A DNA stretch of 36,408 bases from the IMG/VR virus record IMGVR_UViG_3300021963_000347, positions 1 through 36,408 of that record. One strand, written 5' to 3'. Positions 129 through 21,556 of this stretch are shown one piece after another. Under the pieces are notes generated by a model, which did no database searches, was not told where the DNA came from, and saw nothing but the letters and a program-made list of their open reading frames with translations. The translations under genes were made by a program, and so were the position numbers. Within the stretch, counting starts at the first letter, position 1, and each line of letters begins with the position of its first letter. This stretch comes from a virus.

Positions 129-564
129 AACCTAATCCAGATTGAAATTTTATAAACTCTATAGAATTTTTGATCTGATACGTTCTGTTTTGAATGACTT
201 TGAGAATACTTTCAATATAGTTCAGCATTGTGTCGTAGTAATCAATTTTTAGACAAACTGTAGAAAGTTTTTCATCTGCATCAAGATACTTTTGCATTGT
301 ATCTTTATCACGAATCTTTTTGGGGAATGGATTCTCAATATAAACATCTGGATCTGCTTTTCCAGAATAATATTCATATCTTTCGTGACGAATATTTCTC
401 TTCTGTTGTTCTGCTTTTTTTCTCAGAAGTACAATGTTATTGTACATCTCAAAGTACTTTGCATGAAGTGCTGGAATTTTTAAAGATTCTGTATGTAGAT
501 TATCAATATCAATTTTGGAATCCTCTTCCCACATCTTTTGAATCATATCAAGATCAAAACTCAT
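127..564 (-). CDS. uvsY: UvsY recombination mediator
   Basis: This 145-residue protein matches T4 UvsY (137 residues) in length and pattern. The clearest match is a YYSGKADPDVY segment near residue 65, where T4 has YYSGRGDGDEF, followed by a helical C-terminal half with a YYDTMLNYIESIL stretch. UvsY is an oligomeric single-strand-DNA-binding mediator that loads the UvsX recombinase onto gp32-coated DNA for recombination-dependent replication and repair. The start ATG (564-562) overlaps the gp3 stop in an ATGA arrangement, so translation is probably coupled. It is followed by uvsW as in other T4-like marine phages. Start choice is supported by the overlap. Confidence 0.88.
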   Translation of the reverse strand: MSFDLDMIQKMWEEDSKIDIDNLHTESLKIPALHAKYFEMYNNIVLLRKKAEQQKRNIRHERYEYYSGKADPDVYIENPFPKKIRDKDTMQKYLDADEKLSTVCLKIDYYDTMLNYIESILKVIQNRTYQIKNSIEFIKFQSGLG

Positions 565-1124
565 AATTTATTGCCACTTAAATCTGTGATATCATAGATA
601 GTATACTTGAAAGTTACCTCAGCAGTCAAATACTCAATATCAGAATCTGTTGCGTCGAATTGTAAATCTGATATTGAGTAAGGCCAAAGATCTTTAAACT
701 TCAATTTAAAGTTTGGCGTGCTGCTACTAGTAAGTATATGTAAAGTTCCATCGGAATAAATGTTCATCAGTTTTGAATCTGATGTATCAACATATTTTTG
801 TTCTTGCTGCAGATCATAAATTTCATCAAGACTATATGGAAATCCAAGTCCACGAATCCAATTCTGAATTTCCATATAGTTTTCAAGATTTTCATCGACT
901 AAAAATCTGATTGTTAAATCATTGAATTGAATTTTATCTCCAGGAGTGTCAATATCTTTCAGATATGATGGTTGAACAGCCACTCCTAAGTTAAGTCCAG
1001 GAATATTTGCACTATTCGAAAAAAATGCAACCTTTGGACACCTATTCAAAGTAAACTTAAATCCTACAGGAGAAAGAAAATTCCTGTTTTGGATTTGATT
1101 TGCAAATGCGTTTCCGACTGCCAT
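561..1124 (-). CDS. 3: gp3-type tail completion / tube terminator protein
   Basis: The 187-residue product begins MAVGNAFANQIQNRNFLSP and contains NIPGLNLGVAVQPSYLKDI and a NYMEIQNWIRGLGFP segment, a pattern I associate with the protein annotated gp3 between gp23 and uvsY in T4-like cyanophages. T4 gp3 (about 176 residues) caps the tail tube and stabilises the sheath end. The NIPG and Phe/Tyr-rich beta pattern also recalls tail tube folds such as gp19, so a tube-related protein is secure while the exact gp3 label depends partly on synteny. It is the first gene after the gp23 terminator, with a late motif only 12 bases upstream and no clear Shine-Dalgarno. Its stop overlaps uvsY by ATGA. Confidence 0.72.
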   Translation of the reverse strand: MAVGNAFANQIQNRNFLSPVGFKFTLNRCPKVAFFSNSANIPGLNLGVAVQPSYLKDIDTPGDKIQFNDLTIRFLVDENLENYMEIQNWIRGLGFPYSLDEIYDLQQEQKYVDTSDSKLMNIYSDGTLHILTSSSTPNFKLKFKDLWPYSISDLQFDATDSDIEYLTAEVTFKYTIYDITDLSGNKL

Positions 1125-1135: not shown

Positions 1136-1142
1136 TATTTAG
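1136..1142 (-). promoter_or_regulatory. Late promoter motif CTAAATA upstream of gp3
   Basis: The minus strand reads CTAAATA directly after the U-run of the gp23 terminator and 11 bases before the gp3 ATG. With T4-type spacing the transcript would start only about six bases before the gene. Its position, in place of read-through from gp23, suggests it restarts transcription for gp3-uvsY. Confidence 0.5.
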
Positions 1143-1145
1143 AAT

Positions 1146-1169
1146 AAAAAAGGGGTCCTTTCGGACCCC
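1146..1169 (-). terminator. Intrinsic terminator after gp23
   Basis: On the minus strand a perfect 7-bp stem GGGGTCC / GGACCCC closes a GAAA tetraloop and is followed by six T residues. It is a textbook rho-independent terminator 22 bases past the gp23 stop codon, and it would insulate the highly expressed capsid gene from gp3 and uvsY. Confidence 0.93.
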
Positions 1170-1190
1170 CCAGAAACCTGTGAGAATGAC

Positions 1191-2612
1191 TCACATGAGG
1201 TTCTTGATAGCAACTCTTCTGTAGTAGCGGTTGCTGTTAACACGAAGACGACCCAGACCCTGATCAGTACCTTCTGCAAATGGGTTTGCAACGATACCGT
1301 AACGAGTCTTGAATCCGATTTTTGGCTGGAAGGAATTCTCACCAACCGCACGTACCATCTGAAGAGGAACGTATGGGCAGTAGAACAGACCAGCGTCATA
1401 AGGCGAAGAACCCTTATAACCAACAACGTAGTACTGGTTGGATCCTTGTGCCAGACCGCTGTTGTCAGCAGCCAGGTTTGCCGAATATGGGTCAATGTAA
1501 ACTCTGTACTTACCGTTGATTGTACCAGCGAAGGTGTTGCCGGTGTCATCAACGTTCAGGTTTGCATTCAGTGCAGGGGTGTAATCCAGAACACCAGCCA
1601 TGGTCAGTGCTGAAGCAACGTCAGCAGAGCACATGATGATGTTGCCCTTACCGCGACGAGTTCTCTGAGCGATTCTGTTTGCATCTCTTTCGATTTGGAA
1701 CAGAAGACCCTTGAACTTTTCAACGGACCAACGACCGTTGGAGTCGATGTCGAGGTCGAATACACCTGCGGTTGCAGTGTTCTCGATTGCGCCTTGCTCA
1801 GCGATCTTGTAGATAGTACGGATAACTTCACGGTTAATCTCAGCAAGAATTTCGCTAGACAGAATGTTAGCGAGTTCTGCTTCTGCATTCAGACCGTGAA
1901 TTGCCTTGAGGTCTTGTGCGAGTTCCAGTGAGTACTCAGCCTTCAGAGCTCTTGACTTTGCAGTAACGGTGACTTTCTCGATTGAGAATGCCATTTGGTT
2001 GAAAGCATTGCTTCCAGTACCATCAAGGTTCTCAGCATCGCCAGTAGGCATTGCGCTACCAACGTTATATGCTGTTGATGTTGCGGTTCCAACTGGGTTG
2101 AGGATCGCTGGGTTGGTGCCGCTTTGTGCGGTTGTACCAATACCAGCAGCGGCATCAGCGAAACCACCGGTAACATCGAAACCTGCATCCTGACCAGAGA
2201 ATGCGGTATCAACTTCGTTGAAGAATGCTTCGGTTCCGCTCTGGTTGTTGTAGCGCGAACGCATTGCGAAGATCAGGCCGGTAGGACCGTTCATTGGTTG
2301 AACGCCAGCGAGATCATAAGCAACCAGGTTTGGCATCGAACGACGGATCAGCGAGATCAGTACGGGATCGAAACCAGCGGTAGGACCAGCAGCAGCTGAA
2401 CCACCGGTGAAACCACCAGTACCAGCTGAGTTGGTTGGGGATTCCATCAGGTTCATACCTGATGTAAATGCTTGCTCCTCACGGAGGAACTTTTCTTGGT
2501 TTTCGAGCAGGACGGCGGTTACAGCTCTTCTGTGCGAATCTTTGATTGGATCAAGACCCTCATAGTTCAGAAGGGGAGCCCACTTTTCCTGCAACTGTTC
2601 GGAATGGAACAT
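1191..2612 (-). CDS. 23: Major capsid protein gp23
   Basis: This 473-residue protein has the gp23 layout. A charged N-terminal delta region of about 57 residues precedes a Ser/Gly/Ala linker and then the capsid core, which starts near a DPVLISLIRRSMPNLVAYDL segment typical of T4-like capsid proteins. An LME57/S site fits the (L/I)xE rule for cleavage by the gp21 prohead protease, so the mature subunit probably begins at Ser58. T4 gp23 is somewhat longer (521). It forms the hexamers of the head. It sits after scaffold gp22 and is closed by a strong terminator. A modest AAAGG Shine-Dalgarno lies before the ATG. I see no late promoter motif in the 45-base gap, so it probably shares the gp22 transcript or uses a divergent site. 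GC content looks higher than in neighbours, in line with high expression. Confidence 0.96.
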   Translation of the reverse strand: MFHSEQLQEKWAPLLNYEGLDPIKDSHRRAVTAVLLENQEKFLREEQAFTSGMNLMESPTNSAGTGGFTGGSAAAGPTAGFDPVLISLIRRSMPNLVAYDLAGVQPMNGPTGLIFAMRSRYNNQSGTEAFFNEVDTAFSGQDAGFDVTGGFADAAAGIGTTAQSGTNPAILNPVGTATSTAYNVGSAMPTGDAENLDGTGSNAFNQMAFSIEKVTVTAKSRALKAEYSLELAQDLKAIHGLNAEAELANILSSEILAEINREVIRTIYKIAEQGAIENTATAGVFDLDIDSNGRWSVEKFKGLLFQIERDANRIAQRTRRGKGNIIMCSADVASALTMAGVLDYTPALNANLNVDDTGNTFAGTINGKYRVYIDPYSANLAADNSGLAQGSNQYYVVGYKGSSPYDAGLFYCPYVPLQMVRAVGENSFQPKIGFKTRYGIVANPFAEGTDQGLGRLRVNSNRYYRRVAIKNLM

Positions 2613-7636: not shown

Positions 7637-9826
7637 TCAAACAGTTCCTGCAACTTCCTCAAAGCTGACCCCAGTTCGAGTCGCTACGAAAGTTAGAGTT
7701 ACGTAGTTAATTGACTTTGTTGGTTTCAGATAAATGTCAGCTCTGAATTCGTTATTGTCAATAACATCAGGAGTATTATTTGTTTCATCACAAACAACTA
7801 AGAAGTCGTAAAGACCACGTTTTGCTTGGATGTCTCTCAGATATGGTTCAACAATGTTCACAAAGTTAGATCTTGTAATTTGATCGTTCAGTTCAAAGAG
7901 TTGAGCATTTGCAGTTCTTTCAAGTGCTTGTTCTACTGTTAAGAAAAGACGACGAACATTGATTCTATCAAATGCCGAAGCGTATGCCAGCGCGGTTTTA
8001 TCTCCATAAAGAATAACTCCTACTCCTGGTTGATTAATAATTGAGTTTACTCTCAGTGGATAAAGTTGATCTCTCTGCGCTTTAGATGGATTGTATGCAA
8101 GTTTAATTGCATTGTTTAACACACCTCTTTGTTGACCAGCTGGTGAGAACCAAGGATAAGCGGTAATTGAAGTTCTCACCATCAATCCAGCAACGTCTCC
8201 ATTACATGGAATGTATCTAAATTGATTGTTAAATCTATCATAGGTGTACTTATAACCACTATCAAATACTGCAAACGAAGAAGATGAAATTGGTGAGAAA
8301 AATTCAATCAGGTTCGTTGTTTGTGTAGTGGAATTTGTTACATTAACCACATCAGCTCTATGAGGAGAAACAACCGCGATGCAATCTTTTCTTGCATTGG
8401 CAAGAGAGACTAAGTAATTTGCTTTGGCTTGAGATTCAAATTTATTATTTAAACCTGGACCCATAAGGAAGTAGTCTACAGCGATCTCATCTTTATTTGA
8501 GAATAATCCATAAGAAGTAACAAGATCTGCTAATGTTGCTGTCATTCCGTTTGTTGCGGAATAGTCAACGCCAGCACTCAAAGTATATGCAACGTTTCCA
8601 ATGGCACTAAAGGTTTTTCCTTGTGCAGGAAGATTCCACTGACCTTGAGACTCTGTATTTGCTGTAAACGAAGTTGAGAACCCTGTCGCTCTTGGGGTCG
8701 TTACGTTATAGCTGTCAGACCCTACAGAAGGATTGTCTCCAGCATAGACATTTTCCGAGAAATCTGCAATATAGTTCTTCCAGAAAATTTTCTGTGGAGA
8801 ATTAATTGCTGAAACAGCATCTGTAGATTTAGAGAGTCCAATATGCTTTTCTAAGAGATTGCCTTGAATACCAGTAATAGTTCCTCTGTCATCGTAAACT
8901 ACAACATGAATTTCATCATACTTGCAGTTTCTTTCTGAAGCATATGAAGAAGTACCTGGTTTTGGTGCTAAAGACTTCCAATATACTGTTTGGTTGGAAA
9001 GACCAAGAGTTTGTTGATCATACCAATCAAGAACGGATGTTGCTGTATTAGTTGTTCCAGTTTGAATACCACTAGTATTAATAAACTTAACAGAGTCATT
9101 TACCGTAAATGAAGATGCTCTTTCTGATTGTTTGTAATCAATTGTAGTCTCTGTTCCTGCGGAAGAAACTCTGGAGAATATTTTTACATCAATGCTACTA
9201 TTGCCGTTAGTTGCGTCTGTGGTAACTCCAGTGATTATACCCTTTAAGTAACCAGTGAATGTATTTGTTGCGCCATCTCCTGGGATAGTTGCACTAGTTA
9301 AAGCAACAGTAACTCCAACACCAATCGTAGCACCAGCATTTCCAGGGCTTGTCGTATTAATTCCGATTATTTGATCTGCTTTGCTGTCAATAACACATAT
9401 CTTTAAATTATTTGCCCAAGATCCAGGATTTTTTGCAGCAAAAACAAATGGAGCTGAGTCTGCAGAATGGTTTGCAGTATAATCATCGTAGTTATCAATT
9501 TGCAAAGCTGTGGTTGCAGCATATCCAACTGCAGCATTAGCATTGTTTAATGTAGAACCACCAGTTCTGACAACTTTTAATACTCCACCATAACTTAAGA
9601 ATGATGATGCTGACATCCAATACTCATATTGAGCATCAGTCGATAATGGTTTTCCAAATGTATTGATTAATTGTGCTTCCGTTGCAATGTCAATTGGTTC
9701 ATTAACTGGTCCTTTTGTAAAAGGTCCTGCAATTGCTCCAATGTTATCGAGAACATTATCAGCTCTCCCTACAGTTAAATCAACTTCCCTGATAAGTACA
9801 CCAGGAGATAATTGAGGAGTCGCCAT
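7637..9826 (-). CDS. 18: Contractile tail sheath protein gp18
   Basis: The 729-residue product starts with the sheath signature LSPGVLIREVDLT and ends in the conserved sheath C-terminal domain. That domain includes GVGVILYGDKTAL, RINVRRLFLTVEQALERTA and a strand RADIYLKPTKSINYVTLTF, which in T4 interlocks with neighbouring subunits. T4 gp18 is 659; the extra length is in the middle, where sheath proteins carry variable, outward-facing domains. It is followed by tube gp19 and preceded by the packaging genes. A GATAAATA late motif and an ACGGAGAA ribosome site lie upstream. Confidence 0.96.
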   Translation of the reverse strand: MATPQLSPGVLIREVDLTVGRADNVLDNIGAIAGPFTKGPVNEPIDIATEAQLINTFGKPLSTDAQYEYWMSASSFLSYGGVLKVVRTGGSTLNNANAAVGYAATTALQIDNYDDYTANHSADSAPFVFAAKNPGSWANNLKICVIDSKADQIIGINTTSPGNAGATIGVGVTVALTSATIPGDGATNTFTGYLKGIITGVTTDATNGNSSIDVKIFSRVSSAGTETTIDYKQSERASSFTVNDSVKFINTSGIQTGTTNTATSVLDWYDQQTLGLSNQTVYWKSLAPKPGTSSYASERNCKYDEIHVVVYDDRGTITGIQGNLLEKHIGLSKSTDAVSAINSPQKIFWKNYIADFSENVYAGDNPSVGSDSYNVTTPRATGFSTSFTANTESQGQWNLPAQGKTFSAIGNVAYTLSAGVDYSATNGMTATLADLVTSYGLFSNKDEIAVDYFLMGPGLNNKFESQAKANYLVSLANARKDCIAVVSPHRADVVNVTNSTTQTTNLIEFFSPISSSSFAVFDSGYKYTYDRFNNQFRYIPCNGDVAGLMVRTSITAYPWFSPAGQQRGVLNNAIKLAYNPSKAQRDQLYPLRVNSIINQPGVGVILYGDKTALAYASAFDRINVRRLFLTVEQALERTANAQLFELNDQITRSNFVNIVEPYLRDIQAKRGLYDFLVVCDETNNTPDVIDNNEFRADIYLKPTKSINYVTLTFVATRTGVSFEEVAGTV

Positions 9827-9861
9827 GTTTTTCTCCGTTAGATCTCAGTTTATCTAAAAAA

Positions 9862-9869
9862 TATTTATC
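9862..9869 (-). promoter_or_regulatory. Late promoter motif GATAAATA upstream of gp18
   Basis: GATAAATA on the minus strand sits in the 82-base gap before gp18, 36 bases from its ATG. The rest of this gap shows no gene or hairpin. Confidence 0.6.
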
Positions 9870-9908
9870 AAAAAGTTACTTTTCACTGGGAAAACAATGC
9901 ATGAACAC

Positions 9909-10133
9909 CTACCAGTCAGGATATTCCCATAAAATGTTTTGATTTTTTAACTTTCTATTTGCTAGAACTCGATTCTTCGTACACTCTTTGCATTCATAAG
10001 AATACGCGGAAACTGAAACACCTTTTCTAATTCTATAAAAATCTTCGATTAAATTTTTTTCTTTATGGCAAGTCCTACACTTTCTTTCGGTAAAAAATAA
10101 ATGTCCAAGTCTCAACTGGCCATCTAAGTCCAT
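9909..10133 (-). CDS. Small zinc-binding protein, endonuclease VII-like Zn module
   Basis: The product is 74 residues when started at the ATG at 10133-10131, which overlaps the gp17 stop as TAATG. An upstream in-frame ATG at 10148 would add five residues but lies inside gp17. The core is CRTCHKEKNLIEDFYR...YSYECKECTKNRV, two CxxC pairs about 24 residues apart. This resembles the zinc-binding part that precedes the HNH core in recombination endonuclease VII-type proteins. No HNH His/Asn motif follows, so nuclease activity is not supported. It could be a truncated nuclease, a regulator, or a packaging accessory coupled to terminase synthesis. Confidence 0.75.
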   Translation of the reverse strand: MDLDGQLRLGHLFFTERKCRTCHKEKNLIEDFYRIRKGVSVSAYSYECKECTKNRVLANRKLKNQNILWEYPDW

Positions 10134-11776
10134 TACCGATATTCCCACATAAATGCCCGATCACCATATTCATCGGTAAACCATCTATCACCTTCTTCAT
10201 CAATAAAACTATTTTCATCCGTACCATCAACGATAAATCCAAAGGGTGACATGTCTTGTTCTATCTGGTTCTTCTGTTCTTCATAGAGACGTTTACGAAC
10301 ATCTTGATCTGTAAGTTCTTTGAAGTAATCTTGTGCAACCAACCAAGCATAGATCACAAGACACATTGCTAAGTCATCATTACAACCTTCTTCTGCCTCA
10401 AAAGAATTATGCTTCTGAATGAACGTTGTAAGTTCACTCATAATCTCATAATCATTGAAAATAAGTTTATCTTCTTCAATCATCGTCTTTAAATTAAGGC
10501 ATCCTACTTTTTTAACTGCCTTAGACATCTTGACTCCAAGTTGAGTCTTCTTACCAGAAAATCCCTGGCCCACAATTTGTCCTGCACGACCACGCATTGA
10601 GCACATCAAAAGATTATTATACTCTAGATCATAGTGAATAATCGATGCTACCTGATCTCCAACGTCGTTGACTTCACAAAGAATAAACGCATCATTATAA
10701 CTCTTAGCTAAGTCAACAATAACGCTTGGGAAAAGCATCGGTTTGATTTCATTATTTCGATATTTTGCAACTACCCTATGTGGAAATTGTGTAATGTCTA
10801 CAACGGTAAACGCTGAGTAATCGTTTCCTACGCCTCTGGCTACGTCTACAGTCATCAAATAGTCATGTTCCTCAATAGGGTCTACATATACATCTAAACC
10901 CGCGCTACGGGTCTTAGGATGGTCATAGACTAAGGTTCTAAGTTTACTTGGAGAAATAAGAGTATCAACAGATCCAAGGAACTCACATTCAAATTCAACT
11001 TTGAACTGTTGCTCTGAAGTGTTTGCAATCGTTTGTTTTTTCCACTCAGCATCACGACCAGGAACTTCAGACCAATGAACATCAGTAAAAATATATTCAT
11101 TTTTACCACGCTCAGCATCATGCCACATACGGTAGAAGTGATTCATACCGTGTGGAGTAGAAACAATGATTACTTTTGTACTTTTACCTGAAGTAATTGT
11201 AGGATAAACCGATGCAAAGAATGAATCTGCGATGTGATTTGGAACGAACGCAAATTCGTCCAAAAAGAGAATATTGAAAGACATACCACGAACCGCAGAA
11301 GCAGAAGTAGAAGCAGCCAAGATTTTACTTCCGTTTTCCAATTCCAAAGATCCTTTGTTCCAAGCGATGATTCCCTGTTGCATCCATTTTGGTAAATTTT
11401 CATACGCTGTCTGCAAACGATCTAAAAGTTCTCTTGCTGTTGCGGCTTTGTTTGCAAGGATACCTATATTTACATTATCATTGAATACTGCGTAATGTAA
11501 AAGAAATGATACCACGGTTGTAGACTTACCAGTCTGTCGAGGCATCTTGCAAATATTAAAGCGATGTTGGTGGAAATTGTTAACTAACCTTTCCTGAAAT
11601 GGATACATCGCAAAAGGTTGAAGACCCTTATCAAGAGTCACGATCTTTACATAATTTTTTGCAAAATATACAGGATCATTTTTACAGCGAACAAATTCAC
11701 GAATCTGATCTTCAGTAAATTCAATTGGTGTATTGGCTTTCTTTAATAGTGGATTACCAAGATATACGTCACTCAT
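10133..11776 (-). CDS. 17: Terminase large subunit gp17
   Basis: The 547-residue protein has both halves of the packaging motor. The ATPase half shows a Walker A motif PRQTGKST (residues 79-86), Walker B ILFLDEF (169-175, Asp173/Glu174) and the coupling motif STP (206-208). The RNase H-like nuclease half shows Asp311 in MTVDVARG, Glu368 in ILCEVNDVGD and an acidic pair at 467-468 in CNDDLAM, matching the three catalytic acids of T4 gp17. Length is below T4 (610), mainly at the termini. It translocates DNA through the portal and cuts concatemers. It is separated from its small subunit gp16 by the fibre region. Confidence 0.97.
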   Translation of the reverse strand: MSDVYLGNPLLKKANTPIEFTEDQIREFVRCKNDPVYFAKNYVKIVTLDKGLQPFAMYPFQERLVNNFHQHRFNICKMPRQTGKSTTVVSFLLHYAVFNDNVNIGILANKAATARELLDRLQTAYENLPKWMQQGIIAWNKGSLELENGSKILAASTSASAVRGMSFNILFLDEFAFVPNHIADSFFASVYPTITSGKSTKVIIVSTPHGMNHFYRMWHDAERGKNEYIFTDVHWSEVPGRDAEWKKQTIANTSEQQFKVEFECEFLGSVDTLISPSKLRTLVYDHPKTRSAGLDVYVDPIEEHDYLMTVDVARGVGNDYSAFTVVDITQFPHRVVAKYRNNEIKPMLFPSVIVDLAKSYNDAFILCEVNDVGDQVASIIHYDLEYNNLLMCSMRGRAGQIVGQGFSGKKTQLGVKMSKAVKKVGCLNLKTMIEEDKLIFNDYEIMSELTTFIQKHNSFEAEEGCNDDLAMCLVIYAWLVAQDYFKELTDQDVRKRLYEEQKNQIEQDMSPFGFIVDGTDENSFIDEEGDRWFTDEYGDRAFMWEYR

Positions 11777-11782
11777 AATAAA

Positions 11783-13057
11783 TTACCTTTGTTCAATCCA
11801 GTTCAATACTGCAAGTGCTGCTTTATTCGTATTGGGACTTGCACAAGCGAGTGTATAAGTATCACTGATTGTTCCAATACCACTTCTACCAATTTGTAGT
11901 TGTGCTTTATCATCAATATCAATCAATGCTGCACCACCACCAACAACAAATCCATTCAATAAAGTAGTTCCACCAGTCGTTGCAGTTTCAGTAATATTAT
12001 ATTGCATAAAGGAGTTTGGATCTGGATGATCTACCCAAGTTCCACCTGTGTTTGTTGCATTCTCAAGAAGTTTCCAATATACATTTGTATTATCATTCGT
12101 TGCCGCTTGTAATGATCTCAAAATCATTACTGCAGATAATTGTGTAGATTTTAGACGAATACTTACAATGGGGTAAAATGTATTTGCAGAAGTCATTGTT
12201 GTCCCTGTAATAGGATTTGCGATACTTACAAGAGTTCCAAGTTTTTCTGGTTCTCCTTCTTGAATCAAAGAATTAGAACCCTGATATATGTAATGAGTTC
12301 CTGCGACACCAGTTACATTTTCTATTTCAACTCTGATTGGTAAAAATGGCGTGGAACACCAAACTTTATCATTTGTATTTCCATTATCAAAAGTATGAGA
12401 TGCGATGGTCTCATTCTTCATCAACCAATTAAACTGGACGATACCTGCACCATACCATTCATAGTTGATGGAGATCATTTGTTGTTTTGTTGGATCTGCA
12501 GTTACTCCCGTCCAACCATTACCATCAAACTTTTCACCATTCCAATTATCTCTGGTTACTCTAGTTTCAGTAGCAATACCTGATGTATTGCTGCGAATTA
12601 CATAAGAATATGTTCCTCCATTATCCTCAAAGTATGCACCATTATTATCATCAAACAATCCAAATCTTCTACGAATACCTACCTGTGGGGTATCAAGACG
12701 AATTGCAAATGCAAGTGTTGCAGATCTACCAGGAATGTATCTCATTACCTGTTTGGTTTGACGAATAACTTTACTTCCTGCAGTTGATCCAACTTGCATC
12801 ACAACATTGCTTGATGATGCATTATGAGTTGCAGTTCCAACTCCAACTATTCTTTCATCCCATACATCAGTCTCTTTACCGTACTGGAAGGTGTTGAAGA
12901 ATACTGTTTGATATGGAGAAACTTTGAGACGATTGTTACCAGTAAATTGTGGCCTCCACTCCGTTTGATTTCCCCAGTGATCCGCAATATTAAAGACCTC
13001 AAAGAGACTTCTCTCTTGATCTAAGAAGTCCTGTGTTTTCTTATTCCACTGTGCCAT
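11783..13057 (-). CDS. Virion structural protein of the gp16-gp17 interval
   Basis: This 424-residue protein begins MAQWNKKTQDFLDQERSLFEVF and is dominated by beta-strand sequence. It has NTFQYGKETDVWDE, GRSATLAFAIRLDTPQVGIRRRFGLFD and a Gly-rich tail ending in ALAVLNWIEQR. I recognise it as a type found beside gp17 in marine T4-like phages, where it is annotated as a structural protein, but I know of no assigned role. The central part, with Trp-rich segments such as INYEWYGAGIVQFNW, looks like a lectin-type jelly roll. That suggests a tail or head appendage. It is packed between neighbouring genes with gaps of three to six bases and has no promoter motif of its own. Confidence 0.75.
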   Translation of the reverse strand: MAQWNKKTQDFLDQERSLFEVFNIADHWGNQTEWRPQFTGNNRLKVSPYQTVFFNTFQYGKETDVWDERIVGVGTATHNASSSNVVMQVGSTAGSKVIRQTKQVMRYIPGRSATLAFAIRLDTPQVGIRRRFGLFDDNNGAYFEDNGGTYSYVIRSNTSGIATETRVTRDNWNGEKFDGNGWTGVTADPTKQQMISINYEWYGAGIVQFNWLMKNETIASHTFDNGNTNDKVWCSTPFLPIRVEIENVTGVAGTHYIYQGSNSLIQEGEPEKLGTLVSIANPITGTTMTSANTFYPIVSIRLKSTQLSAVMILRSLQAATNDNTNVYWKLLENATNTGGTWVDHPDPNSFMQYNITETATTGGTTLLNGFVVGGGAALIDIDDKAQLQIGRSGIGTISDTYTLACASPNTNKAALAVLNWIEQR

Positions 13058-13060
13058 AAA

Positions 13061-13378
13061 TCAAATCCAATCTAATTTTGCTGGGTGGTATCGTTTTGAA
13101 TCTGTAATTTTAACTTTTTCTTCGATTGCAGGATAAATTTGATGCACAATTGCTCCTGGATACTGATCTTGCAATTGTTCTGATAAACCATTTAAAGATG
13201 GTAAACCATTATCTGTTTCTATTTTCATTCTATATAGACTTCCTCGCCAAACCACATCCGCATAAAACTCCTCAGAAACTCTTTGCTGTTGCTGAGAGTC
13301 ATTTCCAATAATTAAAGTACCGTTAAAATCTCCAGAAATGTTAACGCTTTCGGAGAGAAATTGATTAAAACTTTTCAT
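13061..13378 (-). CDS. Small protein sharing the WRG-YPG domain of its neighbour
   Basis: The product is 105 residues from the ATG at 13378-13376, which overlaps the upstream stop as TAATG. An ATG 12 bases further up is possible but lies inside the neighbour. It opens with MKSFNQFLSE, a head-like tag seen at the start of several small cyanophage proteins. It then carries a domain with ADVVWRGSLYRMK and a later QLQDQYPGAIV. The same domain occurs in residues 410-475 of the 565-residue neighbour, as TWRGKSYMAK and QIQKVYPGSTV. The two genes thus contain a duplicated domain and are translationally coupled. Function unknown. Confidence 0.78.
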   Translation of the reverse strand: MKSFNQFLSESVNISGDFNGTLIIGNDSQQQQRVSEEFYADVVWRGSLYRMKIETDNGLPSLNGLSEQLQDQYPGAIVHQIYPAIEEKVKITDSKRYHPAKLDWI

Positions 13379-15075
13379 TAGCAGTTCCAAGCTCTGAGTG
13401 ATTTGTTAATACGTGAATCTGGGTCTCTTGCGGTTTTAGAAGAAGTGAGTTTCTTTTTCATACCCTTCATTCGAGCACAAAAACTCTTCCTGCGGGGATT
13501 TCCAACCTTCTTTGAAGGTGCCTTAAGATCGCTTCCAGGATTCTCACGCTCATAAGACTTACGTCCTTTTTCATTGAGACCACCTGATTGATTTTTACCT
13601 TCTTTGCGTTGCCATGCTGCAACTTCTTCGATTTTCTCTTCAGTTACTTGAATCAGTGGTTCTCCAGGTTGTACTTTAGATACCTCATAAGAAAGAACGG
13701 TTGAACCTGGATAAACTTTTTGAATTTGATCATTAACTTCCCTTCTTGTTGGCATCTTAGCATTAGGGAAGAACATCTTTGCCATGTAAGATTTCCCACG
13801 CCAGGTCAGGATGATTGATAATACATTTCCATAAATTGCAGGAATCTTGATTGCCTCAGAAAACTCTTCGTTTGTTGGGTGAATTTGAGCTATACTATAC
13901 TTGGCTGAGTTATCTTTTAGTGCAGTTGGAAGTGAGAACATAGCCCAGGATTTATGTCCATATTTGCATTGATAGTAATGCTCTTCTCTTTGGCATTTTG
14001 GACAATATCTTTTTTCATCATCATTAAGTGGTGCATCCCAGTCTGGTAAATAATCAGTAGATTCTGATTTATTACCCCAATTTGCAGCACCTTTTTTGCG
14101 ACACTTGACAAGTGCTCCAGATGCATAAGCACTTGGCCAAACTTTATATCTTGACTTTACTTTATGATAGCAAGCATCTTTTTTGCCTTCCTCTTCTTTC
14201 ATTGTTTTAGGTTTTTTACCTGCCTTTTTCATTGCAATAGCAATCGCGGCTTGTTGAGCTGGATTTGCTGCTTCTGAAATTTTCTCATCACTTGCCATAT
14301 AATCAGCAGCAGTATCAATAAAATCCGCTGCTCTAGTAATTTTTGACTGAACCCAAGCAGGAATTTGTTGATCTCCTTTTTTAATATGCTTTCTTAACAT
14401 CGCAATAGCTCTTTCGATTTGATCGAACTCTACCATTGCCATGTATCCTTCTTCATCCTTCATCTTTCCAGATGCGATCTCCTTATGATCTTCACTCACA
14501 GGAACACAATTTGGAACAATTTTCTTACCTTTCTTCTTCATTCCAACTTGCTTATATCCTACCCAGCATTTCTCATCAATCTGAGTTTCTTCTGTAGCAA
14601 CATTGATTGCTTTTCCACTTCTTTCTGGATTTGGATCTTTTTTATTCTTACGACGAAACGCTGCTTCCTCTTCGCTTTTCGATAAGTCTCTCTTCATTTT
14701 ACTTGATCCACACTTTGGTTTTGTTGTTTGTCCTGGTTGTTTTGCACAAGGTTTACCTGCATATTTTCCACCTAATTGAACCCATCCAGGTTTTCCATCA
14801 GAAGACTTTGATTTTGAAAACCAATCATGAAGAGAACTATCTCCTGATTTATTTTCTTCTTTCATTGCCTCTTTTTCCATTTTCTTCAGACGTGTATAAT
14901 AATCTGGAATTTCATCTAAATGCTGAAGTGCAATGTCCATAGCAAGATCATGATCTTTCGTATGTTCATGTTCAATAGGCTCACCTATTTTCAGTTGCTT
15001 CTTAATGAAAGAAACATCGACACGATGCTTCTTTGCAATTTGTTCAACTGTTTTATGTGACTTCAGATTAAGCAT
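13378..15075 (-). CDS. Mosaic lysine-rich zinc-ribbon protein (DUF5661...DUF6321 type)
   Basis: The 565-residue protein is a string of short modules, several of which I know from separate marine phage proteins. Residues 5-68 are a DUF5661-like helical unit (HDLAMDIALQHLDEIPDYY). About 80-155 is a DUF5872-like unit (PGWVQLGGKYAGKPCAKQPG). About 168-192 has a CWVGYKQVGMKKKGKK...NC element. About 215-262 contains IPAWVQSKITRAADFIDTA. About 300-335 is a CYHKVKSRYKVWPSAYASG unit. Residues 358-374 form a zinc ribbon CPKC-x8-CKYGH. About 410-475 is the WRG-YPG domain, and about 495-565 is a DUF6321-like end (RRKSFCARMKGMKKK...RAWNC). It is strongly basic with 12 Cys. No catalytic motif is visible. 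A DNA-binding or head-internal protein is possible but unproven. A late motif lies only nine bases before the ATG. Confidence 0.85.
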   Translation of the reverse strand: MLNLKSHKTVEQIAKKHRVDVSFIKKQLKIGEPIEHEHTKDHDLAMDIALQHLDEIPDYYTRLKKMEKEAMKEENKSGDSSLHDWFSKSKSSDGKPGWVQLGGKYAGKPCAKQPGQTTKPKCGSSKMKRDLSKSEEEAAFRRKNKKDPNPERSGKAINVATEETQIDEKCWVGYKQVGMKKKGKKIVPNCVPVSEDHKEIASGKMKDEEGYMAMVEFDQIERAIAMLRKHIKKGDQQIPAWVQSKITRAADFIDTAADYMASDEKISEAANPAQQAAIAIAMKKAGKKPKTMKEEEGKKDACYHKVKSRYKVWPSAYASGALVKCRKKGAANWGNKSESTDYLPDWDAPLNDDEKRYCPKCQREEHYYQCKYGHKSWAMFSLPTALKDNSAKYSIAQIHPTNEEFSEAIKIPAIYGNVLSIILTWRGKSYMAKMFFPNAKMPTRREVNDQIQKVYPGSTVLSYEVSKVQPGEPLIQVTEEKIEEVAAWQRKEGKNQSGGLNEKGRKSYERENPGSDLKAPSKKVGNPRRKSFCARMKGMKKKLTSSKTARDPDSRINKSLRAWNC

Positions 15076-15084
15076 TTTTATTAT

Positions 15085-15092
15085 TATTTATA
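15085..15092 (-). promoter_or_regulatory. Perfect late promoter TATAAATA fused to a terminator
   Basis: The minus strand reads an exact TATAAATA whose first T is the last base of the U-run of the terminator at 15092-15116. The ATG of the 565-residue gene follows after nine bases, so with T4 spacing the leader would be about four bases long. Confidence 0.7.
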
Positions 15093-15116
15093 AAAAAAGG
15101 GGCAGTTGCCTGCCCC
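15092..15116 (-). terminator. Intrinsic terminator after the S74 fibre
   Basis: On the minus strand a perfect 7-bp stem GGGGCAG / CTGCCCC closes a GCAA tetraloop and is followed by seven T residues. It starts about 20 bases past the fibre stop codon. Together with the late motif it forms a compact stop-restart element between the fibre and the mosaic gene. Confidence 0.93.
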
Positions 15117-15136
15117 CGTTAGAATCTAATCAAGAA

Positions 15137-18100
15137 TCACTTCTTGAGTTCTTCAATTTCTGCCTTAAGCGCAGCGATCATTTCGCCTTGCTCACGTACA
15201 GCAGCAATCAGAACACCAACAAGACCGTTATAGTTAACAGTCTTATGATCCTCTCCAGTGTGTACCAGTTGTGGCAGATACTCTTCGATCTGCTGAGCGA
15301 TGACACCGCAGGTTTCAGCTCCACTTGACTTCCAAGTGAAGTGTACACCCTCCAGTTTTCCAACCAGTTCGGATGCGTTCTCAATGACGCGGATGTTATC
15401 TTTCAGGTTTCTATCCGAAGATGAGTTGAAGTCAGTTGCAGTGACAATTCCACTAGAGTTGACATTAGCACAAGTCAATTGACCAGTGATAGTCATTGTT
15501 GTTTGTGCTTGAACATCTCCACTGAATGTGGAAACACCTGCATTGCTAATAAGCAATGAGTTGAAAGTGTTTGGTGCGTAACCCAGAGCGGTCTCAAGAG
15601 TTGCAACGGTTGTAGCGTCAACAGAGTTGATGCCAACAAGAGCGAAGGAATTAATCCATTCGCCGGTTGCACTATTATATCTCAGAAGTTGACCATTAGA
15701 AGGTGATGTTAAGGTAACATCGCTAAGGTCATTCAGAGAGTTGATTGCACCACCATATGTTTGAGTATTGTAAGCATAGAATTCGACAATATCTCCTGCA
15801 TAGGCAGCCTCACCAAGCGTAACAGTGGTTCCATTGGTTGCAGTAAACTCACTAGGAGCAAGTTTAACACCATTGACATAAATGTCAAGGTAACCAACAG
15901 TATAAGTTACTGTAAATGCGGTTTGACCAGCAGTTGCAGTTTGAACAGAAGTTGTTCTCAAGTTTGGAAGAGAACTTCCAAGAGTCGTCCAAGAAACACC
16001 TGCTCCAGTGCTTGATAAGACATAAGATGCAGTACCAACCGAATTATTACTATCAGTCAGAGTTCCATTGATCTTAATATTATTGAATGTAGAAATGCCA
16101 GTGGTAGCACTTACATTACCATTCAAATATCCAGTTACGTTACCAGTGACATTACCAGTTACGTTGCCAGTCAGAGCACCTACAAATCCACCAGTTGAAG
16201 TTGTAACACCAGAAGCATTAATATTGGTAATGGTTAAGGAGTTTGCACTTAAAACTGGTGTTCCATTAATTTCATACTGTTTACCTGATGCAAGGTTCCA
16301 ATCTTCACTTGAAGTTAATGCTGATGCAGTATTATTCCAAGTAATAGTCTTACGAATGTTATCAGAACCGATTCCAATACCTGCTCCATCAAGAAGTGTA
16401 TTGGTCGATGCTGTTGTAGCAACACCAACAATAAAGTCTGCAAGTTGAATTGTAGCCGAGTTTACAACAAACTGAGTACCATCAACATATAAGTCACCCT
16501 TAACTCTTACCGCACCAGTATTATCACCAACACCAGCTGGGTCAATTGTGATTACAGAAGGACCAGTAATTGTATTGGTGTTGATTCCGATTGCAGAACC
16601 AGAAGCACCAGTTGTAAACTGAGTAGCAGTTACAATACCAGTTGAGTTAACGTTAACCGCAGTAATAGAACCAGTTGCAGTAACAGCAGCAACAGATGCT
16701 GTTCCAGTAACGGTTGGAGATGCTAATGTTGGTGAAGTACCAAATACAAGAGCACCAGAACCAGTCTCATCGGTTACAGCAGCCGCTAAGTTAGCAGAAG
16801 ATGGAGTTACTAAGAATGCAGTTACACCAGTTCCAGCACTAGCAATGTTTGCTGCAATATAACCAGTACAGTTTGTCAAAGTACCACCAGAAGGAGTACC
16901 AAGAGCAGGAGTTACCAGAGCTGGGCTATTTGCAAATACAAGAGCACCAGAACCAGTCTCATCGGTTACAGCAGCCGCTAAGTTAGCAGAAGATGGAGTT
17001 GCTAAGAACGTTGCTACGTTAGCAGCGAGACCAGAAACACCAGATGAAATTGGCAGACCAGTACAGTTGGTAAGAGTACCAGATGTTGGAGTTCCAAGAA
17101 CTGGGGTTACGAGTGTTGGAGTATTTGCAAATACAAGTGCTCCAGTTCCAGTTTCATCAGTTACTGCAGAAGCAAGGTTTGCTGATGAAGGAGTCCCTAA
17201 GAATGTTGCTACGTTAGCAGCGAGTCCAGAAACACCAGATGAAATTGGCAGACCAGTGCAGTTAGTCAGAGTACCCGAAGAAGGAGTACCAAGAGCAGGA
17301 GTTACCAGAGTTGGTGATGTAGCAAATACAAGAGCACCAGAACCAGTTTCGTCGGTTACAGCAGAAGCAAGGTTTGATGAAGATGGAGTTGCAAGGAAGG
17401 TAGCAACGTTAGCACCAAGGCCAGTAACATTGCCCAGAGCAAGGTTACCACTTAATGTTCCTGCAGTAACTGCAAGACCAACAGCGTTAATACCACCAGA
17501 GGTGATTGTTACTCCAGAACCAATTCTAGCTGAAGTTGATGAAGTTACTCCACTAACATTCAAGTTGGTGATTCCAGCACTGGTATAAGTAGCATTAGTA
17601 CCACTCAGAGTTGTAACAACACCAGTAACAATGTTACCTGTTGCAATATTAGCAGTTGTAATATTATCAGTGGTGAAGTTACCAGTTGTATAAGTTGCAG
17701 TTGTACCACTAATTGTGGTAACAACACCAGTAACAATGTTACCAGTAGATGCATTCAGAGTTGTGGTATTTGCAGTTGTACTGTTAAAGTTTGTACCAGT
17801 TAAGGTATCAGTTGTTGAGTTATAAGTTAATTCTGCATCTGTAGCTGCAGTTGTCATTACACCAGAAGTTAAACTGGTTAATACAACTCTTTGTGAACCA
17901 GATCCAGCACTTAAAGTAGCACCAGTGTTTGTTAAGTTAGAACCGTCACCAACAAATGATGTTGCAGTAACAACACCAGTAACTCTAATACCACCAGAGG
18001 TGATTGTTACACCAGAACCAATAATTGCTGAAGTTGATGTTGTAACACCAGAAACATTCAAGTTGGTGATTCCAGCACTGGCATAAGTTGCGTTAGTACC

Positions 18101-20491
18101 ACTTAAGGTTGTAATCGTACCAACACCAGTAACGTTCAGGTTAGTGTGAGTTGTATTGGTAATAGTTGCGTTAGTACCACTTAAAGTTGTAACAACACCA
18201 GTAACAATGTTACCAGTGGTTGCATTCAGAGTTCCTAAGTTACCAGTTGTGTATGTAGCAGTTGTACCTGATAATGTAGTTACAACACCAGTAACAATGT
18301 TACCAGTTGTAAAGTTACCAGTTCCATAGGTAGCAGTTGTACCACTCAAAGTTGTAACTACACCAGTAACGATGTTACCAGTGGTTGCATTAAGTGTACC
18401 AACATTAGCAGTTGTACTCTGGAGAGTAGGAATTGTTCCTATACCAGAAGCATTAATATTGGTAATGGTTAAGGAGTTTGCACTTAAAACTGGTGTTCCA
18501 CCAATTTCATACTGTTTACCAGATGCAAGGTTCCAATCTTCACTTGAAGTTAATGCTGATGCAGTATTATTCCAAGTAATAGTCTTACGAATATTTGCAG
18601 AACCAATGCCAATTCCAGCACCGTCAAGAACAGTATTTGACGCAGCAGTTGATGCAACACCAACAACAAAATCAGCTAATTCAATTGTGCCTGAGTTTAC
18701 AATAAACTGAGCACCATCAACATACAGATCACCCTTAATTCTAACAGCACCAGTATTGTCACCAACAGCAGATGGGTCAATTGTGATAACTGCGGGACCA
18801 GAAATTGTATTAGTATTAATACCAATTGCAGAACCAGAAGCACCAGTTACAAACTGTGCTGCAGTAACTACACCACTATTGTTAATGTTGGTGGCATTTA
18901 GACTGGTTACAGTTGCGTTTGTACCACTCAGGTTAGTAAGTGATAAAACATCTGTAGTTGAGTTATAAGTTAATTCCGCATCCGTAGCTGCGGTTGTCAT
19001 TACACCAGAAGTCAGAGTTGTTAATACAACTCTAGATGCTCCAGAACCAGCACTTAAAGTAGCACCAGTGTTTGTTAAGTTAGAACCGTCACCAACAAAT
19101 GATGTTGCAGTAACAACACCAGTGACATTAACTCCAGTTGAGTTAGCTCTTACATTACCACCGCCTGCTAATAAAGTAGATGTTGTGGTAACACCAGAAT
19201 TATTCAAGTTTGTTGAGTTAACACTCGTATAAGTTGCATTAGTACCACTCAGAGTTGTAACAACACCAGTAACGATGTTACCAGTAGTTGCGTTGAGTGT
19301 ACCAACGTTAGCAGTTGTACTCTGAAGAGTAGGAATTGTGCCAACACCAGAAACATTCAGGTTTGTGATTCCAGCACTGGTATAAGTTGCGTTAGTACCA
19401 CTCAGAGTTGTAACAACACCAGTAACGATGTTACCAGTAGTTGCGTTGAGTGTTCCTAAGTTACCAGTTGTGTATGTAGCTGTAGTACCACTCAGAGTTG
19501 TAACAACACCAGTAACGATGTTACCAGTAGTTGCGTTGAGTGTTCCTAAGTTACCAGTTGTGTATGTAGCTGTAGTACCAGATAATGTAGTAACAACACC
19601 AGTAACGATATTGCCCGTGGTTGCATTCAGAGTTGATAACCCACCAGTTGTACCCTGAAGGTTGGTTAATGATAAAGTATCAGTTGTTGAGTTATAAGTT
19701 AATTCTGCATCCGTAGCTGCAGATGTCATTACACCCGAAGTCAGAGTTGTTAATACGACTCTAGATGCTCCAGAACCAGCACTTAAAGTAGCACCAGTAT
19801 TTGTTAATTGTGAACCATCACCTTTAAAACTAGTTGCAGTAATAACACCAGTAGCATTAATACCACCAGAAGTGATTGTTACACCAGAACCAATAATTGC
19901 TGAAGTTGATGTTGTAACACCAGAAACATTCAAGTTGGTGATTCCAGCACTGGTATAAGTAGCATTAGTACCACTCAGGGTTGTAACAACACCAGTAACG
20001 ATGTTACCAGTAGTTGCATTAGCAGTTGTAAAATTACCAGTAGTACCGTTAAGATTTGTATAAGTTGCAGTAGTACCACTTAAGGTTGTAACAACACCAG
20101 TAACAATGTTACCAGTTGCAATATTAGCAGTTGTAATATTATCAGTGGTGAAGTTACCAGTTGTATAGGTAACAGTTGTACCACTTAAGGTTGTTGCAGT
20201 AGAAACGCCGGCAGCGTTAATATTACCAGTTACGTTACCAACAACGTTACCTGTTACATTACCTGAAACGTTACCAGTTACGTTACCAGTCAGAGCACCT
20301 ACAAATCCACCAGTTGAAGTTGTAACTCCACTGATTCTTACGTTACCAACAACGGTAAACTTTGAATCTGGAAGTGCTGTACCGATACCGACTTTAGTTG
20401 AAGCTGAGTTGGAAGTAATTCCAATATAATTCGAACTTGCGTCCAGCTCCAAGAACGACGCAAATTGCGATAGTTCTCTGTTAAATGCCAT
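15137..20491 (-). CDS. Long repeat tail fibre with S74 self-cleaving chaperone domain
   Basis: This is a 1784-residue fibre. The first ~1030 residues are Thr/Asn/Gly/Val repeats (GNVTGNV runs, then 30-residue units with TTGNIVTGVVTTLSGTTATY). Residues about 1031-1256 are units of about 65 residues around GTPSSGTLTNCTGLPISSGV. About 1531-1592 holds a VNGVKLAPSEFTATNG module followed by LNDLSDV. The C-terminal 97 residues form a Peptidase_S74 intramolecular chaperone with SDRNLKDN. Ser1692 and Lys1697 have the Ser-x4-Lys spacing of the endosialidase autocleavage dyad, so about 92 residues should be released after trimerisation. It lies in the variable gp16-gp17 interval and is probably a host-recognition fibre. 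It has an AAAAGGAG ribosome site, an upstream hairpin and its own terminator. Confidence 0.93.
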   Translation of the reverse strand: MAFNRELSQFASFLELDASSNYIGITSNSASTKVGIGTALPDSKFTVVGNVRISGVTTSTGGFVGALTGNVTGNVSGNVTGNVVGNVTGNINAAGVSTATTLSGTTVTYTTGNFTTDNITTANIATGNIVTGVVTTLSGTTATYTNLNGTTGNFTTANATTGNIVTGVVTTLSGTNATYTSAGITNLNVSGVTTSTSAIIGSGVTITSGGINATGVITATSFKGDGSQLTNTGATLSAGSGASRVVLTTLTSGVMTSAATDAELTYNSTTDTLSLTNLQGTTGGLSTLNATTGNIVTGVVTTLSGTTATYTTGNLGTLNATTGNIVTGVVTTLSGTTATYTTGNLGTLNATTGNIVTGVVTTLSGTNATYTSAGITNLNVSGVGTIPTLQSTTANVGTLNATTGNIVTGVVTTLSGTNATYTSVNSTNLNNSGVTTTSTLLAGGGNVRANSTGVNVTGVVTATSFVGDGSNLTNTGATLSAGSGASRVVLTTLTSGVMTTAATDAELTYNSTTDVLSLTNLSGTNATVTSLNATNINNSGVVTAAQFVTGASGSAIGINTNTISGPAVITIDPSAVGDNTGAVRIKGDLYVDGAQFIVNSGTIELADFVVGVASTAASNTVLDGAGIGIGSANIRKTITWNNTASALTSSEDWNLASGKQYEIGGTPVLSANSLTITNINASGIGTIPTLQSTTANVGTLNATTGNIVTGVVTTLSGTTATYGTGNFTTGNIVTGVVTTLSGTTATYTTGNLGTLNATTGNIVTGVVTTLSGTNATITNTTHTNLNVTGVGTITTLSGTNATYASAGITNLNVSGVTTSTSAIIGSGVTITSGGIRVTGVVTATSFVGDGSNLTNTGATLSAGSGSQRVVLTSLTSGVMTTAATDAELTYNSTTDTLTGTNFNSTTANTTTLNASTGNIVTGVVTTISGTTATYTTGNFTTDNITTANIATGNIVTGVVTTLSGTNATYTSAGITNLNVSGVTSSTSARIGSGVTITSGGINAVGLAVTAGTLSGNLALGNVTGLGANVATFLATPSSSNLASAVTDETGSGALVFATSPTLVTPALGTPSSGTLTNCTGLPISSGVSGLAANVATFLGTPSSANLASAVTDETGTGALVFANTPTLVTPVLGTPTSGTLTNCTGLPISSGVSGLAANVATFLATPSSANLAAAVTDETGSGALVFANSPALVTPALGTPSGGTLTNCTGYIAANIASAGTGVTAFLVTPSSANLAAAVTDETGSGALVFGTSPTLASPTVTGTASVAAVTATGSITAVNVNSTGIVTATQFTTGASGSAIGINTNTITGPSVITIDPAGVGDNTGAVRVKGDLYVDGTQFVVNSATIQLADFIVGVATTASTNTLLDGAGIGIGSDNIRKTITWNNTASALTSSEDWNLASGKQYEINGTPVLSANSLTITNINASGVTTSTGGFVGALTGNVTGNVTGNVTGYLNGNVSATTGISTFNNIKINGTLTDSNNSVGTASYVLSSTGAGVSWTTLGSSLPNLRTTSVQTATAGQTAFTVTYTVGYLDIYVNGVKLAPSEFTATNGTTVTLGEAAYAGDIVEFYAYNTQTYGGAINSLNDLSDVTLTSPSNGQLLRYNSATGEWINSFALVGINSVDATTVATLETALGYAPNTFNSLLISNAGVSTFSGDVQAQTTMTITGQLTCANVNSSGIVTATDFNSSSDRNLKDNIRVIENASELVGKLEGVHFTWKSSGAETCGVIAQQIEEYLPQLVHTGEDHKTVNYNGLVGVLIAAVREQGEMIAALKAEIEELKK
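16205..16625 (-). repeat. Long cassette duplicated within the fibre gene (copy 2)
   Basis: About 140 codons (residues ~1290-1429) containing GTQFVVNS...LADFIVGVAT, LLDGAGIGIGS, IRKTITWNN and EDWNLASGKQYEI. They closely repeat the cassette at about 18444-18860 (residues ~544-683). Long stretches are identical at DNA level; boundaries are approximate. Confidence 0.85.
16725..17400 (-). repeat. Tandem 195-bp units (GTPSSGTLTNCTG type) in the fibre
   Basis: Three to four units with a period of 195 bp (65 residues); for example the cagatgaaat word recurs at 17041 and 17236. Each unit encodes TLVTPxLGTPxSGTLTNCTG followed by VATFLxTPSSANLAxAVTDE. The sequence type is widespread in phage fibres and suggests a repeated shaft element. 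Confidence 0.85.
18444..18860 (-). repeat. Long cassette duplicated within the fibre gene (copy 1)
   Basis: Partner of the cassette at 16205-16625, about 2.24 kb away. It is bounded by GTP-VLSANSLTITNINASG on one side and ATQF/AAQFVTGASGSAIGIN on the other. Confidence 0.85.
19401..19580 (-). repeat. Perfect 90-bp tandem duplication in the fibre
   Basis: Positions 19401-19490 and 19491-19580 are identical base for base. The unit encodes 30 residues around TLNATTGNIVTGVVTT. Partial, diverged copies flank it at about 18200-18320 and 19240-19340. Identity points to a very recent expansion by slippage or unequal recombination. Confidence 0.95.
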
Positions 20492-20510
20492 TTTCTCCTT
20501 TTAAAAAGTT

Positions 20511-20542
20511 GGATGGGGTTTTTTAGATCTAAAAAGCCATCC
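20511..20542 (-). other. Leader hairpin upstream of the S74 fibre
   Basis: GGATGG (20511-20516) pairs with CCATCC (20537-20542) around an inner palindrome TTTTTAGATCTAAAAA, with a small asymmetric internal loop. It lies between the late motif at 20572 and the ribosome site at 20495-20501. A T5 run follows on the minus strand, so it could be a weak attenuator or an RNA stability element. Confidence 0.55.
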
Positions 20543-20571
20543 TCATGCCCAAAGACACTAGGCTATGCAAT

Positions 20572-20578
20572 TATTTAG
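20572..20578 (-). promoter_or_regulatory. Late promoter motif CTAAATA upstream of the S74 fibre
   Basis: CTAAATA overlaps the stop codon (20577-20575) of the 233-residue gene. The leader to the fibre ATG would be about 75 bases and contains the hairpin at 20511-20542. Confidence 0.5.
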
Positions 20579-21276
20579 AAACTGCTTAAAGAAACTCTTT
20601 TCCAACTGTTCGTGGCAACACAAACGTAAAGATATGAGGAATCGTATGACATTTGACCAGCTAATCCATTTGATGATGATGTTGCTGGTGGGTTGTGTAA
20701 AACGTTTGGAGATACTCCAGTTGATGGTGTATTATATGCATGAAAATCTACTACTTCTCCGCCATAAGTAGATTCATTAAAAATTACCGATGTACCATTG
20801 GTTGCAGTAAAATCTGAAGGTGCTAATTTTACTCCATTAACATATACATCTAAAAACCCAACAGTATAATTTAAAGTAAAAGTATTTGTTCCTGCAATAG
20901 CAACTGTTGAAGAAGTATTTCTTAAAACACTAGCAGATGCCCAAGTAACTCCAACTCCAGTGGACTGCAAATATTGACCATTTTGGCCCGTTGAAGAAGC
21001 AGCACTTACAGTTCCACTGACAACAAAATTCTGAACAGTAAGCGTAGATCCAATGGATACATTATTTGCATAAGAAATTGAATTACCACCGTAGTTCTCC
21101 TTCCAAGGAGTAAGCGATGCTACGGTTGTTGCAATTCCAACTCCGCCAGTATCAACCTGAGCGAATAGTTGTCCATCATACGTGTTTAAACCAAGTTCGC
21201 CCAGAGGCAATTGGTCCGTTGTCGGTCTTTTGCCGGGTACGGCTGACCGTTTAATTTTGATATTCGGATTTGCCAT
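20575..21276 (-). CDS. Short fibre / adhesin-like protein
   Basis: The 233-residue product begins with an IKRSAVPGKRPTTDQLPLGELGLNTYDGQLF motif (residues ~7-37), resembling the N-terminal repeat of phage tropism-type and fibre proteins. A beta-rich middle is followed by VNGVKLAPSDFTATNGTSV, the same module found near residue 1535 of the 1784-residue fibre. The end is a compact GLAGQMSYDSSYLYVCV...WKRVSLSSF element typical of fibre tips. It is probably a small receptor-binding or fibre-connecting protein. An upstream leader of about 70 bases holds a 20-bp palindrome. Confidence 0.8.
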   Translation of the reverse strand: MANPNIKIKRSAVPGKRPTTDQLPLGELGLNTYDGQLFAQVDTGGVGIATTVASLTPWKENYGGNSISYANNVSIGSTLTVQNFVVSGTVSAASSTGQNGQYLQSTGVGVTWASASVLRNTSSTVAIAGTNTFTLNYTVGFLDVYVNGVKLAPSDFTATNGTSVIFNESTYGGEVVDFHAYNTPSTGVSPNVLHNPPATSSSNGLAGQMSYDSSYLYVCVATNSWKRVSLSSF

Positions 21277-21310
21277 CAGGTCAAATTAACATTGTTGGTA
21301 TATACCGTAA

Positions 21311-21330: not shown

Positions 21331-21347
21331 GTAACTAGCATTAAAAA

Positions 21348-21355: not shown

Positions 21356-21361
21356 TAAGTT

Positions 21362-21547: not shown

Positions 21548-21556
21548 AATTTAAAA

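Follow-up and report, generated by a model that had tools for sequence, protein, structure and literature searches.

Can a phage end the transcription of one late gene and begin that of the next inside an intergenic gap of only 61 nt? The window (the whole 36,408-base virus record analysed here) belongs to a T4-like cyanophage. It has profile matches to sheath gp18, portal gp20, capsid gp23, scaffold and UvsY homologues, its large terminase is 86% identical to that of the Kyanoviridae member Synechococcus phage SynMITS9220M01, and all of its assigned genes lie on the minus strand. The gap in question separates a fibre-like gene from a gene for a 565-aa protein and contains a terminator hairpin fused to a late-promoter sequence (Table 1). 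The fibre-like protein matches Pfam PF13884 (E 1.3e-12) and PHROG tail families; its gene is highly repetitive, with recurring TGNIVTGVVTTLSGT units. The 565-aa protein carries DUF5661 near its N-terminus and DUF6321 at its C-terminus, and its place among structural genes suggests that it is expressed late.

Table 1. Features at the two fused junctions of the window
Feature	Position	Strand	Basis
Fibre-like gene, 1784 aa, repetitive, C-terminal Peptidase_S74 chaperone domain	15137..20491	-	ORF
Terminator hairpin GGGGCAG/CTGCCCC, GCAA loop, seven Watson-Crick pairs and one G-U	15098..15117	-	sequence, fold
U-tract, seven T	15092..15098	-	sequence
Late promoter TATAAATA joined to U-tract; core ATAAATA 15085-15091	15085..15092	-	sequence; core enriched by strand and by position
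Predicted +1 at 15079 and 4-nt leader AAAA	15076..15079	-	by analogy with T4 TATAAATA, placed at -13 to -6 (PMC1524935)
565-aa gene downstream of fused element	13378..15075	-	ATG at 15075; ORF
gp23 major capsid gene, upstream of second module	1191..2612	-	PF07068 E 1.2e-146, phrog_138
Second module: hairpin GGGGTCC-GAAA-GGACCCC, six T, ATT, CTAAATA (1142-1136)	1136..1171	-	next-gene ATG at 1124
Tail-tube-like gene, downstream of second module	561..1124	-	phrog_45 E 2.4e-40

Terminator and late-promoter sequences in one element

On the minus strand, the hairpin arms GGGGCAG (15116-15110) and CTGCCCC (15105-15099) flank the GCAA loop (15109-15106), and the G-U pair closes this stem as an eighth pair. 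The G+C-rich hairpin (eight pairs, of which the scan counted six as G-C) leads into seven T, the composition of an intrinsic terminator, and the RNA 3' end would be expected near 15092, within the U-tract. The last T of the tract doubles as the first of TATAAATA, which has the (N/T)ATAAATA form of a late promoter and lies on the coding strand upstream of the presumed late gene. An earlier, sequence-only reading had described a perfect GGGGCAG/CTGCCCC hairpin whose U-run passes into TATAAATA with one T shared, and both the letters and the coordinates proved correct. A 76-nt stretch containing the hairpin folded at -20.4 kcal/mol (z -3.2), and 0 of 200 shuffles were as good. Perfect 7-bp hairpins with at least four G/C pairs and then at least four T occurred twice in the window, compared with 0.047 per shuffle; ATAAATA abutted one of the two, and the joint element appeared in 0 of 1000 shuffles.

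The promoter motif occurred in the window at chance frequency, both as TATAAATA (2 found, 2.8 expected) and as ATAAATA (14 found, 12.2 expected). All 14 ATAAATA sites were on the minus strand, as are the assigned genes, and 9 of them fell within 60 nt upstream of the 27 gene starts, regions that make up 4.4% of the window (binomial P 1e-9). A sigma-70 reading was unsupported, as a consensus scan of positions 8000-24000 gave 47 sites against 48.3 expected.

By its motif, its strand and its place in front of structural genes, the window's promoter resembles the T4-type late promoter, which has the form TATAAATA in T4 and, as published, NATAAATA in cyanophages (PMC2984593). Cyanomyoviruses carry gp55, gp33 and gp45 (PMC2984593), and late promoters are described as having no -35 element (PMC2988020). 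Across eight reference cyanophages, 397 ATAAATA sites lay on the plus strand, which carries most genes, versus 36 on the other; CTAAATA was also strand-biased (242 versus 54 in 11 records) and had the same spacing peak. The ATAAATA-to-ATG distance, scored up to 96 nt with the window and one relative included, peaked at 20-27 nt, where 114 of 278 fell; the seven control words also peaked at this distance and together averaged 23, about a fifth of the ATAAATA height. The window differs from the usual arrangement, in that ATG 15075 stands only 9 nt behind the promoter box, and the 8-11 nt bin held just 5 of the 278 distances, two of which were the window and its relative L285. This ATG is the likely start, because an in-frame TAA upstream of it falls within the promoter box and residue 11 is the first of DUF5661. 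Six related loci (L001, L456, L457, L010, L056 and L475) keep the 9-nt gap.

What of the shared base? Among 481 promoter-like sites in 11 reference cyanophages, ATAAATA was preceded by A at 184, C at 64, G at 104 and T at 129, so the shared T, present as the sequence-only reading had it, means little in cyanophages and was rejected there as a functional overlap. T was commoner at this position in T4, RB49 and KVP40 (47 of 80). Promoter-like sites overlapped an upstream stop codon or sat within 5 nt of one in 175 of the 481 cases, with gene starts and stops in these promoter counts taken from our own ORF calls. Overlap with a tRNA gene was also seen: the 3' end of a tRNA-Ala is the first A of ATAAATA, a one-base overlap, in SynMITS9220M01 (L219 8975-9053) and S-SCSM1 (L277 7370-7448).

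Corresponding junctions in related phages

Junctions of three kinds bear on whether the arrangement is maintained. First, at the fibre junction itself, the 26-base stretch from the T-run to the ATG was identical in three other IMG/VR contigs (L458, L470 and L476), each time with the hairpin in front. The GGGGCAG/CTGCCCC hairpin is present in L455, L456 and L457, and a homologous start of the 565-aa gene in L001, L010 and L056. The fibre C-terminus, used as a query, matched 47 loci, and after exclusion of L471 and L495, which are cut before the stop, the other 45 represented 30 distinct downstream sequences. Eight of these 30 had a hairpin, a T-run and an abutting ATAAATA, namely the three contigs with the identical stretch and L459, L463, L473, L475 and L480. 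The genes behind the fused element begin MLNLKSH, MHKLKAH, MQKLKYH, MDEQRYC or MSNIREL, depending on the contig, with the start not clear in L459; fibres related to the window's can keep the fused element before different genes. The abutting element was absent from the other 22 of the 30 sequences, most of them from more distant fibres; L498 had none, and in L472 a spacer separates the T-run from the promoter. L010 and L056, which are alike here, have CATAAATA with the same promoter core and the same 9-nt gap before the homologous downstream gene, and no terminator before the promoter box. In both, ATAAATA contains the TAA that closes an upstream frame of 81 open codons (L010 5985-5991, L056 3286-3292). 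Because the box stands in these two loci without a terminator, the terminator and promoter halves are separable, and the joint lies at the promoter box. The S-SRM01 homologue lies in a different upstream context, behind a terminase small subunit gene and CTAAATA.

Second, the best 80 of 520 loci for the phrog_3086 gene, whose function is unknown, gave 64 distinct upstream sequences, and ATAAATA was present upstream of the gene in all 64. A T-tract of at least five, with one other base allowed, reached the ATAAATA box in 45 of these, and a hairpin at least as stable as -10 kcal/mol stood at the tract in 42, compared with 1.95 expected from dinucleotide shuffles. At a hairpin threshold of -8, a hairpin and a T-tract of at least five abutted ATAAATA in 41 of the 64, with 40 distinct hairpins. 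These hairpins vary in length and register, and a consensus fold of the window with 37 of the 42 junctions that bear a hairpin found no common pair. A pair table drawn from self-folded hairpins is circular, and we relied on the shuffle control only.

Third, the element is not unique within the window: a second module lies behind gp23 (Table 1), and T4 has three similar junctions. Among the matches listed for gp23 ends we took the best 80 loci, of which 2 were too short and 3 were duplicates. All 75 counted loci had a terminator, scored as five T and a hairpin of -7 kcal/mol. [AC]TAAATA began 7-12 nt after the start of the T-run in 49 of the 75 and at 13-60 nt in 16, and the remaining 10 had a terminator and no [AC]TAAATA within 60 nt. 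The 49 abutting promoters were CTAAATA in 42 cases and ATAAATA in 7. For the distance to the next gene, a slightly different fused pattern gave 56 gp23 junctions, 54 of them with an identifiable start; the promoter-to-start gap was 9-13 nt in 29 of these 54, and four of the 54 starts (three GTG and one TTG, with gaps of 0 or 7 nt) are probably wrong. Such spacing suggests a class of late mRNAs with predicted leaders of about 4-8 nt. The gp23 junction was fused in 4 of 11 reference cyanophages (P-TIM68, SynMITS9220M01, S-CAM9 and S-SRM01), and CTAAATA did not stand directly behind the gp23 terminator in the other 7. In S-SCSM1, the sequence behind the gp23 terminator resembles a TTGACA/TATAAT promoter whose two boxes are 17 bp apart, so an unchanged stop may be combined with a different restart. 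A search of related genomes for the fused element, which the sequence-only reading had proposed, thus found it to recur (three contigs, 41/64 phrog_3086 junctions and 49/75 gp23 loci).

Genome-wide spacing and junctions in known phages

The excess of abutting pairs across whole genomes was modest. In eight cyanophages, the window and one relative, ATAAATA lay within 12 nt of the tract start at 14 of 129 perfect-stem terminators, two of the 14 being the window and its relative. The commonest of 20 other A5T2 words scored 7 and 6, which could be shifts of the same sites, and the rest scored 0-4. Eleven cyanophages contained 80 strong terminators with a same-strand gene 20-120 nt further on; 13 of these had ATAAATA before the next gene, and in 10 it abutted the terminator, versus 4.2 expected from genome-wide spacing (P 0.0004, 5000 draws), with 6 of the 10 cases coming from one phage, S-SRM01. 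T-tracts lacking a good hairpin abutted ATAAATA in 12 of 216 cases versus these 10 of 80 (Fisher P 0.077, leaving out 17 tracts of middle strength, 3 of them abutting). As hairpin-poor tracts also abut ATAAATA, the hairpin-specific excess is weak in the 11 cyanophages. T4, RB49 and KVP40 showed no significant abutting excess (5 versus 3.8 expected, P 0.31), and in a scan of 15 records with a looser pattern, the control matched about as often in some, for example P-SSM2 and S-PM2. The case therefore depends mainly on the orthologous junctions, whose related sequences do not count as independent cases.

Individual junctions of known phages resemble the window's. T4 has a hairpin, a T-tract and ATAAATA before genes 9, 36 and alt, at the 8/9, 35/36 and alt.1/alt junctions, and ATAAATA starts 4-9 nt after the start of the tract. 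The tracts differ from the window's unbroken T run, being TTTTTCTTT at 8/9 and 35/36 and AATTTT before alt. Of 6 genomes, all are reported to have a predicted terminator between 35 and 36, and 5 to have one upstream of alt (PMC1524935); the terminator section of that paper is silent on late promoters at the 35/36 and alt terminators. In S-PM2, psbA is followed by the hairpin GGAACTC-TTCG-GAGTTCC, seven T, ATAAATA and the gene for the homing endonuclease F-CphI (L371, 136000-137400), an arrangement like that of the window except that the promoter lies 23 nt from the ATG rather than 9 nt. The same hairpin occurs in S-SRM01 between a gene for the photosystem II D1 protein and one for a homing endonuclease (L506, 209000-210500), where about 800 unannotated bases lie behind the D1 gene. 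We recognised no account of fused terminator-late promoter elements among the papers listed for our searches, which covered a minority of the subscription journals.

S-SRM01 also contains three near-identical blocks of hairpin, TTTTCTTG and TATAAATA, at 51305, 56017 and 62468 (L505, 50800-62900). Each block stands at a gene start, and one of the genes carries the annotation nuclease-associated modular domain protein, which raises the possibility that mobile genes carry the block.

A probable transcription boundary and the alternatives to it

These results make it likely that the element is a compact transcription boundary, which would terminate the fibre gene, restart transcription from a late promoter and insulate the two units from each other. 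The case is made at the level of sequence, by both signals, their fusion, their recurrence and the arrangement kept at orthologous junctions; we infer that termination and initiation actually take place here, that the leader is 4 nt long and that the arrangement brings a benefit. A polymerase finishing the fibre gene would make the GGGGCAG/CTGCCCC hairpin and release its RNA in the seven-U tract near 15092. Polymerase bearing gp55, together with gp33 and the gp45 clamp, would then open the A-T-rich late promoter directly behind and restart near 15079, leaving about 4 nt ahead of the AUG of the DUF5661/DUF6321 gene. Because a late promoter consists of a -10-like box only, the terminator can occupy the place of a -35 element. 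The element may be kept because it insulates the units, so that read-through would neither occlude the new promoter nor raise the dose of the next gene; insulation plus compaction is the simplest reading of the mechanism. The compact stop-restart switch proposed by the sequence-only reading is partly supported and is the best reading, since the arrangement is kept at orthologous ends while the letters of the hairpin change, the motif is that of the published late promoter and there is no -35 element for a hairpin to disturb. The short distance of 9 nt to the start codon, with the leader of about 4 nt that it predicts, was absent from that reading.

A further step, in which the polymerase stays on the DNA after releasing the fibre RNA, picks up gp55 and restarts at the late promoter, seems unlikely. 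Close spacing would then serve the hand-over, and this step would add to a transcription boundary without excluding it. E. coli polymerase mostly remains DNA-bound after intrinsic termination, diffuses and can reinitiate at promoters close by, and added sigma increases this reinitiation (PMC6978380; PMC6978322). The predicted RNA end and new start would be 13 bp apart, and the 7-12 nt spacing at 49 of the 75 counted best gp23 loci is also in keeping with a hand-over, but the 175 of 481 late promoters packed against upstream stop codons indicate that packing alone can explain such spacing. An extended version is unlikely to the same degree: a selected relay block of ~45 bp, comprising terminator, late promoter and near-leaderless start, at which polymerase is recaptured by gp55 and the clamp and which forms a cassette boundary for exchange of downstream genes behind fibre genes and gp23.

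It is quite improbable that only the terminator works, with the A-T-rich TATAAATA arising as a by-product of the U-tract and the downstream gene expressed by read-through. Motif counts at chance in the window and a 9-nt gap in the short tail of the distance distribution (8-11 nt, 5 of 278) speak for this reading, but in L010 and L056 CATAAATA and the 9-nt gap persist where there is no terminator, 42 of the 49 abutting gp23 junctions use CTAAATA, which is not a U-tract product, and gaps of 9-13 nt recur in 29 of 54 gp23 junctions. That the hairpin mainly protects or processes the 3' end of the fibre mRNA and does not terminate transcription is very improbable: stable GNRA-looped hairpins can block exonucleases, and this one has a GCAA loop, but stabilisation needs no T-tract, and tracts of at least five T accompany the hairpin in 41 of 64 phrog_3086 junctions and, by the search criterion itself, in all 75 counted best gp23 loci.

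Read as a transcription boundary, the element combines known parts in a fused arrangement that recurs and is maintained, and the compact stop-restart design at several gene junctions looks like maintained punctuation built from familiar parts. This suggests a conserved rule by which T4-like cyanophages merge the end of one unit with the start of the next at some late junctions. If so, operon limits would become easier to predict from sequence, places of gene swapping would be marked, a class of nearly leaderless late mRNAs would be predicted, and these junctions would provide natural templates for the study of post-termination polymerase recycling with a non-sigma70 promoter.
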